From assembly GCA_029858505.1 (NCBI GenBank), contig JAOUEW010000005.1:62001-126000 (forward strand): a stretch of DNA of 64,000 nucleotides, read 5' to 3'. Below, piece by piece: positions 55 to 45,718 of the stretch (position 1 is its first letter; each line of letters begins with the position of its first letter). The notes beneath the pieces are model-generated. The model was given only the letters and a program-made list of their open reading frames with translations, was not told the origin of the DNA and did not search any database. Source of the DNA: Deltaproteobacteria bacterium (lineage in GTDB: Bacteria > SAR324 > JACQKK01). Made by a program: the position numbers and the translations under genes.

Positions 55-262
55 GAACAACACCCCTGCCCCGGGGGCTTCCCCTCCCCTTCGTGGAGGG
101 GAAATACATTGAAGCCGGTGGGTGATGCGAGGACTTCCGTCCAGTCTATGTTTTCTGAACGGATGATTTGATGTGCCGATGACTTCGAGTAACGGGTGCT
201 GTTGGGGAATGATGGGTAATGAATAAATAGCCGTTGGATTCGAGTAACGGGTGCTGTTGGGT
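55..262 (-). repeat. Intergenic two-hairpin repeat, locus R1
   Basis: AACAACACCCCTGCCCCGGGGGCTTCCCCTCCCCTTCGTGGAGGGG... plus linker GACTTCGAGTAACGGGTGCTGTTGGG. Confidence 0.75.
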
Positions 263-2059: not shown

Positions 2060-2400
2060 TTCCGAACAGCACCCCTCCCTGGCGGCTGCGCCGCCTGTCC
2101 CTCCCCATTCGGAGAGGGACAATACGGCTTAGGCCGAGGGGTGGAGATAGAACCCGTTTGGATGAGGGGACTGGAAGGATAAAAACAAATCACTTTTCGG
2201 ATGCGAATGATTTCCCGAACAGCACCCCTCCCTGGCGGCTGCGCCGCCTGTCCCTCCCCATTCGGAGAGGGACAATACGGCTTAGGCCGAGGGGTGGAGA
2301 TAGAACCCGTTTGGATGAGGGGACTGGAAGGATAAAAACAGATCACTTTTCGACTTCGATTTACTTTCCCCTCCACGAAGGGGAGGGGAGGGGTCTTGTT
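2060..2400 (-). repeat. Intergenic two-hairpin repeat, locus R2 (two tandem units, 153-bp period)
   Basis: GAACAGCACCCCTCCCTGGCGGCTGCGCCGCCTGTCCCTCCCC... begins at 2064 and 2217. Confidence 0.9.
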
Positions 2401-2455
2401 CGGATGCGCGCAGGGGGAAGAAGAGGGATACGGTTAGAAAGAATTGAACCCGGAA

Positions 2456-8580: not shown

Positions 8581-8604
8581 CTTCAAACACGCCCAAGAAA
8601 ACTA

Positions 8605-8763
8605 CTACTTGGCGGGAGCGGCAGGAGCGGCAGGAGCGGCGGCAGGAGCGGCTTCTTTCTTAGGAGCGGCTTTCTTGCCTTTTTTGGCCATGGCGCCAGA
8701 GGCCATGGTCAAGCCAAACAGAACGGCGGTCAACAAAGCAACCAGCATGTTGGTGCGTTTCAT
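8605..8763 (-). CDS. Small secreted Lys/Ala/Pro-rich protein, paralog of next gene
   Basis: MKRTNMLVALLTAVLFGLTMASGAMA signal peptide + KKGKKAAPKKEAAPAAAPAAPAAPAK; has its own terminator. Confidence 0.7.
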   Translation of the reverse strand: MKRTNMLVALLTAVLFGLTMASGAMAKKGKKAAPKKEAAPAAAPAAPAAPAK

Positions 8764-8930
8764 GTTTCCTCTTGTAGTGGAGTGTTGTTGAAAGGGCCCG
8801 GGCGAATTGGCCGGGTTAACAGTTATATTACCTATCCCTTCAAAAAAAACCAACGGAATAATTTTGAGGAGATGGTTTTTTAAACGCCTCGCCCTTGGAT
8901 AGAGACCCCCCCCTCCATAACAACAAAAAA

Positions 8931-8956
8931 ACCCGGTGTGGTTTCCCACACCGGGT
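8931..8956. terminator. Rho-independent (bidirectional) terminator
   Basis: ACCCGGTGTGG/CCACACCGGGT 11-bp stem with A-run on the left and T-run on the right. Confidence 0.85.
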
Positions 8957-8980
8957 CTTTTTTTTGCCCAGCCAAAACAA

Positions 8981-9169
8981 CTACTTCTTGGCGGGAGCGG
9001 CAGCAGGAGCAGCAGCAGGAGCGGCGGCAGGAGCAGCAGCAGGAGCAGCGGCGGCCTTGTCGTCTTTCTTGGCATCTTTCTTGGCTTTGTCGGCAGCCAT
9101 GGCGCCAGTAGACAGGGTCAGACCAAACACAACGGCAGTCATCAAAGCAACCAGATTGGTGCGTTTCAT
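8981..9169 (-). CDS. Small secreted Lys/Ala/Pro-rich protein (AAPAAAP repeats)
   Basis: MKRTNLVALMTAVVFGLTLSTGAMA signal peptide + ADKAKKDAKKDDKAAAAPAAAPAAAPAAAPAAAPAKK. Confidence 0.7.
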   Translation of the reverse strand: MKRTNLVALMTAVVFGLTLSTGAMAADKAKKDAKKDDKAAAAPAAAPAAAPAAAPAAAPAKK

Positions 9170-13450: not shown

Positions 13451-13473
13451 CACGGTAAATTCCCAGGTGGTCG

Positions 13474-13706
13474 GAATGATGGAAGTAAAGGTGCTCCCCC
13501 GACTTGCCCAATTGTAGCACAACGTCTTGGGGGTCGCCCTGAAGGTTCTTATTTTTTACGGTATTTTGAGCGTGCTGGCCAGCTGTCGCCGAACGGTGTT
13601 CCAGCCCCCGCCCAGGGAATTCCCCCGTGTAGTGGGGGTTCTTCAGCGTGTTCTGAGCGTGTTCGTCCGCAGTTGCTGAACGGTGCTCCACCCCCTGGCC
13701 GGGGAA
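13474..13706 (-). repeat. 233-bp direct repeat, copy 1 (orphan copy)
   Basis: Near-identical to 14591..14823; minus strand encodes EHRSATADEHAQNTLKNPHYTGEFPGRGLEHRSATAGQHAQNTVKNKNLQGD.QDVVLQLGKSGEHLYFHHSD. Confidence 0.9.
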
Positions 13707-13760: not shown

Positions 13761-14522
13761 TTACTTTGCGATTTCAAATTTCAGCCTGACATAACCAGTG
13801 CCTTTCACCAGGGTAAGATATAAATAATTTCCATGCACTTCATAGTCAAGGATTTTTACTTTCCCTTTTTCCTTGTGCTTCCACTCAGTTCTATCGGGGA
13901 AATATGATTTATACTCATCCCAGTTCCAATAAAATTTGATCGGTTTTTTATAAGTTTTTGAAAAGGCCGTGCCAAAATAAAAAACACGGTCACTTTTCAT
14001 ATCTTCAGAAAGATAAATGTCCCGCTTCTCATCGTAATAAGCCAAATTAAAAATGGCTGGCGACTCACTCTTGTCCGATTCTCGAAAAAATTTAATGTAT
14101 ACATAATATGAATCTCTGATTACCCTCCTGACTTGCACAGTAATAGTAAATATATCTTTTGAGTAACCACTTGGTTCATACTGCAAATACTCGTTAAATT
14201 CCATGTCTGCGAGTTTCCACTTTTTTTCCGTGGCATACCGGTAATAAATTGCGGCTTCTTTTTCATTAAAATACAATACGGTCACAGCAACATTAGGGGA
14301 AGCACCCTCCCCCAAATCCCATTCATCAACTGTAATTTTATTAAACGTTTCTTTGTATTTCTGTGGGATATCTATTTCCACCTCGTCATAATAAAATCGA
14401 TCCCCTTTTTTTTGAATAGATTTCCCAATTTCATCCTGGCCCCATATAGGGGTGGAAATAAATAGTATGCAAAAAACCACTCCCCACATCACTACCGTGC
14501 TGGATGTTTTATATTTTTGCAT
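13761..14522 (-). CDS. Exported protein of unknown function, AT-rich (candidate immunity-type partner)
   Basis: 253 aa, N-terminal signal (VVMWGVVFCILFISTPIWG), no recognised domain; visibly lower GC than neighbours. Confidence 0.6.
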   Translation of the reverse strand: MQKYKTSSTVVMWGVVFCILFISTPIWGQDEIGKSIQKKGDRFYYDEVEIDIPQKYKETFNKITVDEWDLGEGASPNVAVTVLYFNEKEAAIYYRYATEKKWKLADMEFNEYLQYEPSGYSKDIFTITVQVRRVIRDSYYVYIKFFRESDKSESPAIFNLAYYDEKRDIYLSEDMKSDRVFYFGTAFSKTYKKPIKFYWNWDEYKSYFPDRTEWKHKEKGKVKILDYEVHGNYLYLTLVKGTGYVRLKFEIAK

Positions 14523-14905
14523 TACTTGACTCCTTTCTTAAATACATTTCCGCCACTTATAACGCCCGTGTCTTTAAAGCCTTTTATGTCAGAATGGTGG
14601 AAGTAGAGGTGCTCCCCCGACTTGCCCAATTGTAGCACAACGTCTTGAGAGTCGCCCTGAAGGTTCTTATTTTTTACGGTATTTTGAGCGTGCTGGCCAG
14701 CTGTCGCCGAACGGTGTTCCAGCCCCCGCCCAGGGAATTCCCCCGTATAGTGGGGGTTCTTCAGCGTGTTCTGAGCGTGTTCGTCCGCAGTTGCTGAACG
14801 GTGCTCCAGGCCTTGGCCGGGGAGCGCACCCGTTGCTCCCCCGGCCCCCTTGCCCTTTCCATTGCCCAAACCCTGACCATTGGATTCAGGCTGTTTCCCC
14901 TCCAC
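14522..14905 (-). CDS. Putative polymorphic-toxin-like C-terminal fragment
   Basis: Gly-rich lead, two internal PGxGLEHRSATAxxHAQNTxKN repeats, then GKSGEHLYFHHSDIKGFKDTGVISGGNVFKKGVK; stop overlaps the start of the 253-aa gene; N-terminus encoded by intergenic repeat locus R3. Confidence 0.45.
   Translation of the reverse strand: MEGKQPESNGQGLGNGKGKGAGGATGALPGQGLEHRSATADEHAQNTLKNPHYTGEFPGRGLEHRSATAGQHAQNTVKNKNLQGDSQDVVLQLGKSGEHLYFHHSDIKGFKDTGVISGGNVFKKGVK
14591..14823 (-). repeat. 233-bp direct repeat, copy 2
   Basis: Near-identical to 13474..13706. Confidence 0.9.
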
Positions 14906-15007
14906 GAAGGGGAGGGGATGCCCCGCCAGGGGCAGGGGAGGGGTGTTTTTGCCATTCCCCCATTACTTCGGGAGAGGGACAGGCGGCACCGCCGCCGGGG
15001 GTGAGGT
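14894..15007 (+). repeat. Intergenic two-hairpin repeat, locus R3
   Basis: TTTCCCCTCCACGAAGGGGAGGGGATGCCCCGCCAGGGGCAGGGGAGGGGTGTT plus GAGAGGGACAGGCGGCACCGCCGCC. Confidence 0.75.
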
Positions 15008-16145: not shown

Positions 16146-16415
16146 GGGAACAGCGTGTAGCCAAACAGTGACGCGCTTGCATCCGTTTAGTTTGCGCCAA
16201 CCGAACGGATGTATTGAATCACCAAAGGATTCGAGCCTTGCCCCTCTCCTTCGGGGAAGGGCAACCGCCCGCAGGGCGGTGGGGAGGGGTGTTGTAGGGA
16301 ACAGCGTGAAGCCAAACAGTGACGCGCTTGCATCCGTTTAGTTTGCGCCAACCGAACGGTTGTATTGAATCACCAATGGATTCGAGCCTCGCCCATTGGG
16401 CGGTGGGGTGTCGTG
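16146..16415 (+). repeat. Intergenic two-hairpin repeat, locus R4 (tandem, 151-bp period)
   Basis: ACAGCGTG[TA]AGCCAAACAGTGACGCGCTTGCATCCG... begins at 16150 and 16301, separated by hairpins TTGCCC..GGGCAA and CCGCCCGCAGGGCGG. Confidence 0.85.
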
Positions 16416-19079: not shown

Positions 19080-19345
19080 TGGGTGCTTGTTTCCGTCCGG
19101 CTTCACTCACTGAACAATTGAAAAGAGTAGCCGGGGGATTTGAGTATTGTCCCTCTCCGACGGGGGGCGCGGTCTAGCGGGGCACAGCCCCGCTTTTCGC
19201 GCCGGGGACAGCCGCCTGAAAGGCGGCAGGGAGGGGTGTTGTTCGGAAACAACTCGAAGCCGGGGGGTTGGGTGCTTGCTTCCTTCCAATCTATATATTC
19301 CGAACGGATGAAAAGAATAACCAATGGCTTCGAGTCAAGGGGGCG
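19080..19345 (+). repeat. Intergenic two-hairpin repeat, locus R5 (expanded first hairpin)
   Basis: TATTGTCCCTCTCCGACGGGG..., GCCGCCTGAAAGGCGGC, GGGAGGGGTGTTGTTCGG with linkers on both sides. Confidence 0.8.
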
Positions 19346-40273: not shown

Positions 40274-40496
40274 CAACAACACCCCTCCCCTGCCCCCTAA
40301 CGGGGGCATCCCCTCCCCTTCGTGGAGGGGAAATAAATCGAAGCCGAAAAGTGATCTGCTTGCTTCCTTCCAGTCTATATTTTTCCGAACGGTTGAAAAG
40401 AATAGCCGGTGGATTCGAGTATTGTCCCTCCACGAGTGGGAGGGACAGGCGGCGTAGCCGCCAGGGAGGGGTGTTGTTGGGAGAAACTCGAATCCG
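40274..40496. repeat. Intergenic two-hairpin repeat, locus R6 (two hairpin classes in opposite orientation)
   Basis: AACAACACCCCTCCCCTGCCCCCTAACGGGGGCA... then linker, then TATTGTCCCTCCACGAGTGGGAGGGACAGGCGGCGTAGCCGCCAGGGAGGGGTGTTGTT. Confidence 0.85.
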
Positions 40497-45247: not shown

Positions 45248-45718
45248 CAACAGCACCCCTCCCCTGCCCCCTGCGGGGGCATCCCCTTCGTGGAGGGGAA
45301 ATCACTCGCATCCGAAAAGTGATCTGCTTACTTCCGTCCGGCTTCATTCACTGAACAGATTGGATTCTCTACCCTTCGGTCTAAGCCGTATTGTCCCTCT
45401 CCGATGGGGAGGGACAGGCGGCGAAGCCGCCAGGGAGGGGTGCTGTTCGGAAATCACTCGCATCCGAAAAGTGATCTGCTTACTTCCGTCCGGCTTCATT
45501 CACTGAACAGATTTGATTCTCCACCCTTCGGCCGAAGCCGTATTGTCCCTCTCCGATGGGGAGGGACAGGCGGCGAAGCCGCCAGGGAGGGGTGCTGTTC
45601 GGAAATCACTCGCATCCGAAAAGTGATCTGCTTGCTACCTTCCGGTCTTTTATATTCCGCGCGGATTCAATCTCTACCCATTGGCCTACCTCCACGAAGG
45701 GGAGGGGTGCTGTTGGGA
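45248..45718. repeat. Intergenic two-hairpin repeat, locus R7 (three tandem linkers, 151/153-bp period)
   Basis: ATCACTCGCATCCGAAAAGTGATCTGCTT begins at 45301, 45452 and 45605, alternating with hairpin modules. Confidence 0.9.

Follow-up and report, generated by a model that had tools for sequence, protein, structure and literature searches.

The intergenic region between positions 45248 and 45718 of the DNA analysed here (the window, 64,000 nt from a SAR324 bacterium) carries palindromic, tandemly repeated modules, and it raises the question of which structure these modules preserve and in which kind of molecule. A first-pass annotation had described seven loci of this sort (R1 to R7) as two-hairpin modules that alternate with a linker of approx. 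90 nt. Repeat finding recovered all of them (7/7); however, only one end is present at R1 and at R3, and R2 and R7 close in degenerate partial modules. The linker is also real, but the repeat unit proved to be an inverted pair of modules, of which the 152-bp tandem is an extension (Table 1). Several of the loci are found after tsaD and in the gaps that separate the aldo/keto reductase gene from znuA, a zinc ABC permease gene from a GST gene, gltB from a lytic transglycosylase gene, and a SAM hydroxide adenosyltransferase gene from tatD. The closest records of the TsaD protein of the window belong to the SAR324 cluster / Lambdaproteobacteria, with 56–64% identity.

Table 1. Repeat modules of the window and their parts (HP1 and HP2, first and second hairpin; R1 and R2 in the last column are covariance models)
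Feature	Position	Strand	Composition	Support
Type B end module, reverse orientation	45249..45304	-	HP1, HP2 TGCCCCC-GCA-GGGGGCA and third strand GGGGAGGGG	model R2, 65.5 bits; sequence
Linker 1	45299..45388	+	~90 nt, first half of 152-bp unit	
Type A end module	45389..45447	+	HP1, HP2 and third strand	model R1, 87.3 bits, E 3.8e-21
HP1	45393..45415	+	pyrimidine arm GTCCCTCTCC (45393-45402), loop GAT, purine arm GGGGAGGGAC (45406-45415)	sequence, pair counts
HP2	45417..45431	+	GGCGGC-GAA-GCCGCC, hairpin in the place of triplex loop 2	covariation, pairing
Third strand	45432..45440	+	AGGGAGGGG, mirror image of HP1 purine arm GGGGAGGGA	mirror covariation
Second tandem type A module	45541..45599	+	152 bp on	model R1, 87.3 bits; tandem array
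Degenerate partial module	45684..45714	+	CCTCCACGAAGGGGAGGGGTGCTGTT, without HP2	sequence
Type B module of best complete unit (inverted pair)	40275..40336	-		model R2, 88.9 bits
Type A module of the same unit	40420..40478	+		model R1, 75.7 bits
Type A module, tandem copy 1	2065..2124	-		model R1, 83.4 bits
Type A module, tandem copy 2	2218..2277	-	153 bp on	model R1, 83.4 bits
Weak partial type B end, array of the tandem copies at 2065 and 2218	2362..2435	+		model R2, 33.8 bits
Single type B module	56..107	-	HP2 shortened	model R2, 55.6 bits
Single type B module	14891..14950	+		model R2, 75.4 bits
Type A module, divergent HP1	16236..16296	+	HP1 TTGCCC..GGGCAA, HP2 ACCGCCC-GCA-GGGCGGT	model R1, 64.5 bits
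Type A module with insertion	19145..19243	+	~45 nt inside HP1	model R1, 54.5 bits; sequence

The family is dispersed beyond the window. With covariance models for both end types, at least 218 distinct modules were detected in about 122 loci of the genome of origin (G000; an assembly of 2.79 Mb in 14 contigs, 97% complete), a count that was made without a redundant contig and, with 150 candidates scored per model, is a lower bound. As the annotation had stated, modules occur in both orientations and in convergent, divergent and co-directional gaps. Their arrangement follows a simple grammar: neighbours that face outwards are mostly 191–209 bp apart (median ~202 bp), those in the same orientation mostly 150–160 bp, and those that face inwards are found almost only as junctions of 5–48 bp between units. 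From these spacings, the unit consists of two inverted modules of ~60 nt each around a linker of ~90 nt, as in the complete unit at 40275-40478, whose outer ends are 203 bp apart, and tandem growth adds a linker and a module, i.e., ~152 bp. Spacings of 153 bp in R2 (array 2062-2352, 99% matches) and 151 bp in R4 (16146/16297, 96%) agree with those read earlier; in R7 (45297-45645, 96–97%) the units measure 152+152 bp instead of 151 and 153. Within one locus the tandem units are 95–99% alike, far above the likeness between loci, which points to local duplication. Matches in contig C6 (105,880 bp) and in the initial 105,880 bp of C11 have identical positions, and C6 was taken as the redundant contig; this may also explain the 4% contamination estimated for the assembly. 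For at least nine contig ends, in C8, C9, C10, C11 and C13, the distance to a module is no more than 300 bp; the assembly thus seems to be interrupted by the repeats, and the true copy number is probably underestimated.

The family conserves structure, as had been suspected. In alignments of 32 distinct A ends and 22 B ends, pairing in the second helix of the A ends is complete (100%) across the 32 sequences, and six of the seven pairs in this helix change on both sides; its covariation score was reached by 0/500 shuffles, and only 49–56% of cells were paired in slid controls. The B end, previously noted as a second class of the repeat, gives the same outcome from fewer changes: 0/500 shuffles reach either its covariation score or its count of cells changed on both sides. 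The stem variants listed for HP2 were all found, i.e., GGCGGC-GAA/GTA/GCA-GCCGCC, GCCGCCT-GAA-AGGCGGC, and (A)CCGCCC-GCA-GGGCGG(T) in R4. HP1 keeps one non-Watson-Crick pair beside its loop, a point against the triplex reading proposed below, and its variant in R4 is as reported; the description of R5 needs correction, given that its first hairpin is interrupted by ~45 nt with a GC hairpin of their own (window 19163-19210). The idea that the linker is a structured RNA was rejected, because no covariation was seen between its ends, and pairing was as good or better with swapped partners. The loops of HP2 are also restricted: in ~105 modules, GNA was found 67 times, GNNA 26 times and ANA nine times (GNA/GNNA 93/~105). 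DNA mini-hairpins with a GNA or GNNA loop on a closing C-G pair are reportedly exceptionally stable (Hirao, Yoshizawa, Nakano and colleagues). Half of the tetraloops (13/26) have a pyrimidine as third base and hence are not GNRA. Among imperfect pairs in distinct HP2 hairpins, G.T appeared six times and A.C never (p 0.03), indicating that one strand is the one that folds.

The feature that two hairpins leave unexplained is the G-rich tail that follows HP2. In the annotation, GGGAGGGGTG was regarded as a flanking anchor and the conserved GGGAGGGG as the mere end of the module; both descriptions had to be abandoned, since the former mirrors the HP1 purine arm and covaries with it, and the latter is itself part of the structure. 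The tail GGGAGGGG mirrors the purine arm GGGGAGGG, in the order GGGGAGGG(A) / (A)GGGAGGGG. A ends have the arm GGGG-A-GGG and the tail GGG-A-GGGG, and B ends have GGGG-A-GGGG in both. The G-run on the 3' side of the arm's A has the same length as that on the 5' side of the tail's A in 80/82 modules (46 at 3/3 and 34 at 4/4), although this figure overstates the number of events because repeats within one genome share ancestry; both exceptions have a doubled A in the arm. Across the 82 modules the 3' run of the tail stays at four G regardless of the arm, revealing a mirror register and not an alternative Watson-Crick partner, and a direct copy of the arm would predict tail runs of 4,3 in A ends, where 3,4 is observed. 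Arm position 28 and tail position 48 of the A ends are A/A in 29 cases, G/G in three and discordant in none. Alternative Watson-Crick pairing of the tail was tried and rejected, given that the run it predicts does not covary. A rarer subtype with a GGGTGAGG tail has four copies in the same genome (C1:58128, C1:182673, C1:182862 and C9:47801); here and in other genera, the arm GGAGAGGGG is accompanied by the tail GGGGTGAGG, a mirror with T or A opposite A. The third strand covaries with its arm in few independent lineages, namely the A end, the B end, the AACGCCC/ACCGCCC classes, the GGGTGAGG subtype and the other genera. The proposal of an RNA or a cruciform does not account for this segment: covariation in mirror register follows neither from an RNA hairpin nor from a cruciform.

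A class II intrastrand DNA triplex is built in just this order, from pyrimidine arm, purine arm and third strand. The closest described elements are the still poorly understood Box C/PIT/TM motifs, present in E. coli and in more than 260 genomes (PMC4666352, and Hoyne & Maher 2000 as related there). The consensus of Box C/PIT/TM_ECO is CCCTCNCCC N3-6 GGGNGAGGG N3 GGGNGAGGG (Holder et al. 2015, PMC4666352). These motifs and the SAR324 modules share a pyrimidine arm, a purine arm and a mirror-image third strand; both are G-rich, intergenic and present in many copies without orientation bias, with some inverted pairs, and both allow T or A opposite the A of the arm. The A and B ends contain 8–9 mirror triads, where the Box C class II definition asks for at least 7–8. 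The differences concern the sequence, with GGGGAGGG/GGGAGGGG as arm and tail against GGGAGAGGG/GGGTGAGGG; the pairs, which in the SAR324 unit of 200 bp point outwards whereas most E. coli pairs in PMC4666352 point inwards; and loop 2, of 3 nt in Box C/PIT/TM and replaced in the modules by a covarying hairpin of 13–18 nt. The aligned modules therefore work like a class already described but fall outside its short-loop definition (1–6 nt, at most 10). Holder et al. searched for triplexes with loops of 1–6 nt and an earlier search, as summarized in the same paper, used 0–10 nt (PMC4666352). Such limits would make published scans miss these modules, and explain why many hairpin-bridged motifs would have escaped them.

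From this evidence, we consider it probable that the modules are a Box C/PIT/TM-like, non-autonomous DNA repeat whose purine-rich strand folds into a class II intrastrand triplex bridged by a hairpin; that a DNA triplex is the fold under selection is fairly likely. The purine-rich strand would fold when it becomes single-stranded, during replication or recombination or under negative supercoiling. The pyrimidine arm would pair with the purine arm as HP1, the chain would turn through the very stable mini-hairpin HP2 with its GNA/GNNA loop, and the GGGAGGGG tail would lie antiparallel in the major groove as a third strand, forming C-G*G and T-A*A/T triads. Box C/TM of E. coli, with the same order of pyrimidine, purine and third segments, forms a triplex in vitro, but footprinting in vivo detected little triplex, and the evidence was weak or ambiguous (Holder et al., PMC4666352). 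Whether three-stranded DNA matters in living bacteria has been an open question since the Box C/PIT motifs were described, and the coupled change of third strand and partner arm argues, on evolutionary grounds, that the three-stranded fold is itself maintained. The naturally occurring variants of the family also lend themselves to a direct triplex test.

The spreading unit would be two inverted modules around the ~90-nt spacer, with the number of units changing locally by 152-bp tandem duplication. Its distribution suggests that it is mobile, possibly through recognition or instability of its ends; propagation could occur through stalled or re-templated replication, or by means of some trans-acting enzyme. 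The search turned up neither empty sites nor duplicated targets nor an enzyme for mobilisation, the family comparison covering nine genomes of other genera. The E. coli motif is intergenic, has no link to a gene class and is associated with rearrangement (PMC4666352). The modules would have no per-gene regulatory role; in the cell they might serve genome plasticity, as has been proposed in print for the closest kind of element, or with equal likelihood persist selfishly.

A structured non-coding RNA, with two hairpins and a purine tail, that is transcribed and binds a protein or a target, is an unlikely alternative, even though it would explain the strong covariation of the stems and the presence in one strand of G.U yet no A.C pairs. 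No Rfam family passed its threshold in the window. Nevertheless, a module aligns over the full length (1-56/56) of whalefall-1 (RF01762), with 17.8 bits in the window, and the complete genome gave 32 matches with E <= 0.01, the best with 31.9 bits and E 2.1e-6; all are below the gathering score of 37, and one of 14 control genomes also matched. The best match is the C9 copy of the GGGTGAGG subtype. Whalefall-1, known from whale-fall metagenomes only, was rated as certainly RNA (Weinberg et al. 2010, PMC2864571). Its consensus, UCuCuCC..GGaGaGAC-A-hairpin-CAGgGuGAGG, has two hairpins and a G-rich tail as in the module, which presents the same architecture with a GGGUGAGG tail; the whalefall-1 tail, compared by eye, is an approximate mirror of its own purine arm (6/7 positions). 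Whalefall-1 is classed as a non-coding RNA, and the SAR324 modules score under its threshold (17.8–31.9 bits). Against an RNA stand the copy number of at least 218 in gaps of every orientation, the lack of a promoter-like site at the locus, and the tetraloops, which are GNNA rather than GNRA. The mirror register weighs in the same direction, having no explanation in RNA, where purine-motif triplexes do not form (PMC4666352).

Less likely still is an ordinary REP/BIME- or MITE-like element in which a single-strand transposase recognises the hairpins, and the G-rich tail is the recognised end. Inverted ends, a defined unit length, dispersal and genus-specific amplification are all expected from it; the pairs at 191–209 bp show terminal inverted repeats, a fixed unit length and no coding capacity, as MITEs do, and like REP/BIME elements the family is intergenic, palindromic, dispersed and paired in opposite orientation. 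However, the RAYT gene that the annotation had suggested looking for is absent: no RAYT/Y1 transposase (Y1_Tnp PF01797) was detected in G000, with the control positive in 5/14 genomes, and among the relatives it was found in G008 alone (none in G001-G007 and G009). A search for Y2 (IS91) gave no matches, but its control matched nowhere either, and the result carries no weight. The mirror-repeat third strand also separates the family from REP/BIME, since recognition of an end does not need a tail that covaries with the HP1 arm. BOX, RU/ERIC and MITE-like repeats are modular, with distinct ends, a variable number of internal units and inverted ends. No sequence relation to them was found, and their ends are simple inverted repeats, while those of the SAR324 family are triplex-type modules. 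The 1.4-kb inverted pair at C4:115677-117077 was inspected as a candidate autonomous element and rejected, as no transposase-like ORF lies between its ends.

It is quite improbable that the perfect stems reflect mutation instead of selection, with template switching in quasi-palindromes recopying one arm from the other. HP2 does differ by whole-stem changes (GGCGGC, GCCGCCT, GCCGTCC, AACGCCC, TGCCTGC) and is almost always perfect, as such a process would predict, but its loops remain GNA/GNNA, the one-sided G.T bias is left unexplained, and template switching cannot produce the covariation of arm and tail because its copies are inverted and never mirror. Least credible of all is a terminator or attenuator with two exclusive pairings of the pyrimidine arm, for although the sequence of the tail could partly replace the purine arm, the modules have no T-run (U-run in a transcript), a search for terminator-like sites found none at the locus and, across the region, a lower number than shuffling gives, the register of the alternative pairing does not covary while the 3' run of the tail is constant, and both orientations occur, so that the earlier statement that this is not simply a terminator holds.

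A BLAST search with the unit gave no matches in 57 relatives. The covariance-model scan that the annotation had recommended, besides the significant covariation described above, identified diverged copies among nine genomes of the same family and other genera: the A-end model matched 47 times in G003 and also in G001, G005, G006 and G008, i.e., five other genera, and gave two single marginal matches in unrelated genomes. The plan and size of the units of G003 are those of G000 (inverted unit of about 203–210 bp), and its main type has one mismatched triad, which counts against the triplex reading. Linkers are similar to each other within each genus, and all cross-genus pairs (G000 versus G003) lacked a match; judged by sequence, only the ends of the unit seem to be constrained. 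Searches with a strict sequence pattern in the genome contigs, and with a G006 module against plasmids, gave no matches, and the literature yielded nothing on intergenic palindromic repeats in SAR324.

A generic pattern (arm, purine arm, 12–28 nt, GGGTGAGG) was present in 21/287 genomes of many families, and its reversed control in 0/287. Outside the positive members of the family, loop 2 contains a perfect stem of at least four pairs in 17/31 distinct cases, and the loops of these hairpins mostly start with G and end with A. In G238 (L241) the motif of two arms and tail is present with a conserved, unpaired stretch of ~28 nt, GTAACGATTCCAAACGACTGCAATCATG, as loop 2, and thus the hairpin in loop 2 is common and not universal. 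It is tempting, though tentative, to propose a widespread and so far unrecognised class of repeats with lineage-specific sequences and the same selected fold in unrelated phyla, of which whalefall-1 would be a DNA member. Whalefall-1 and the SAR324 modules may thus be of one kind, a warning that an element acting as DNA can be labelled an RNA on the strength of covariation by itself.

The window also contains other repeats. A direct repeat of 236 nt, with copies 96% identical at 13470-13705 and 14588-14823, flanks an unassigned minus-strand ORF (13761-14522) with no Pfam match. In addition, short repeats of 9/12 bp (GCGGCAGGAGC) extend over 8603-9061, partly within a small minus-strand ORF (8605-9075) also with no Pfam match, and a related pair of 66 nt, 82% identical, is located at 8687-8752 and 9096-9161.
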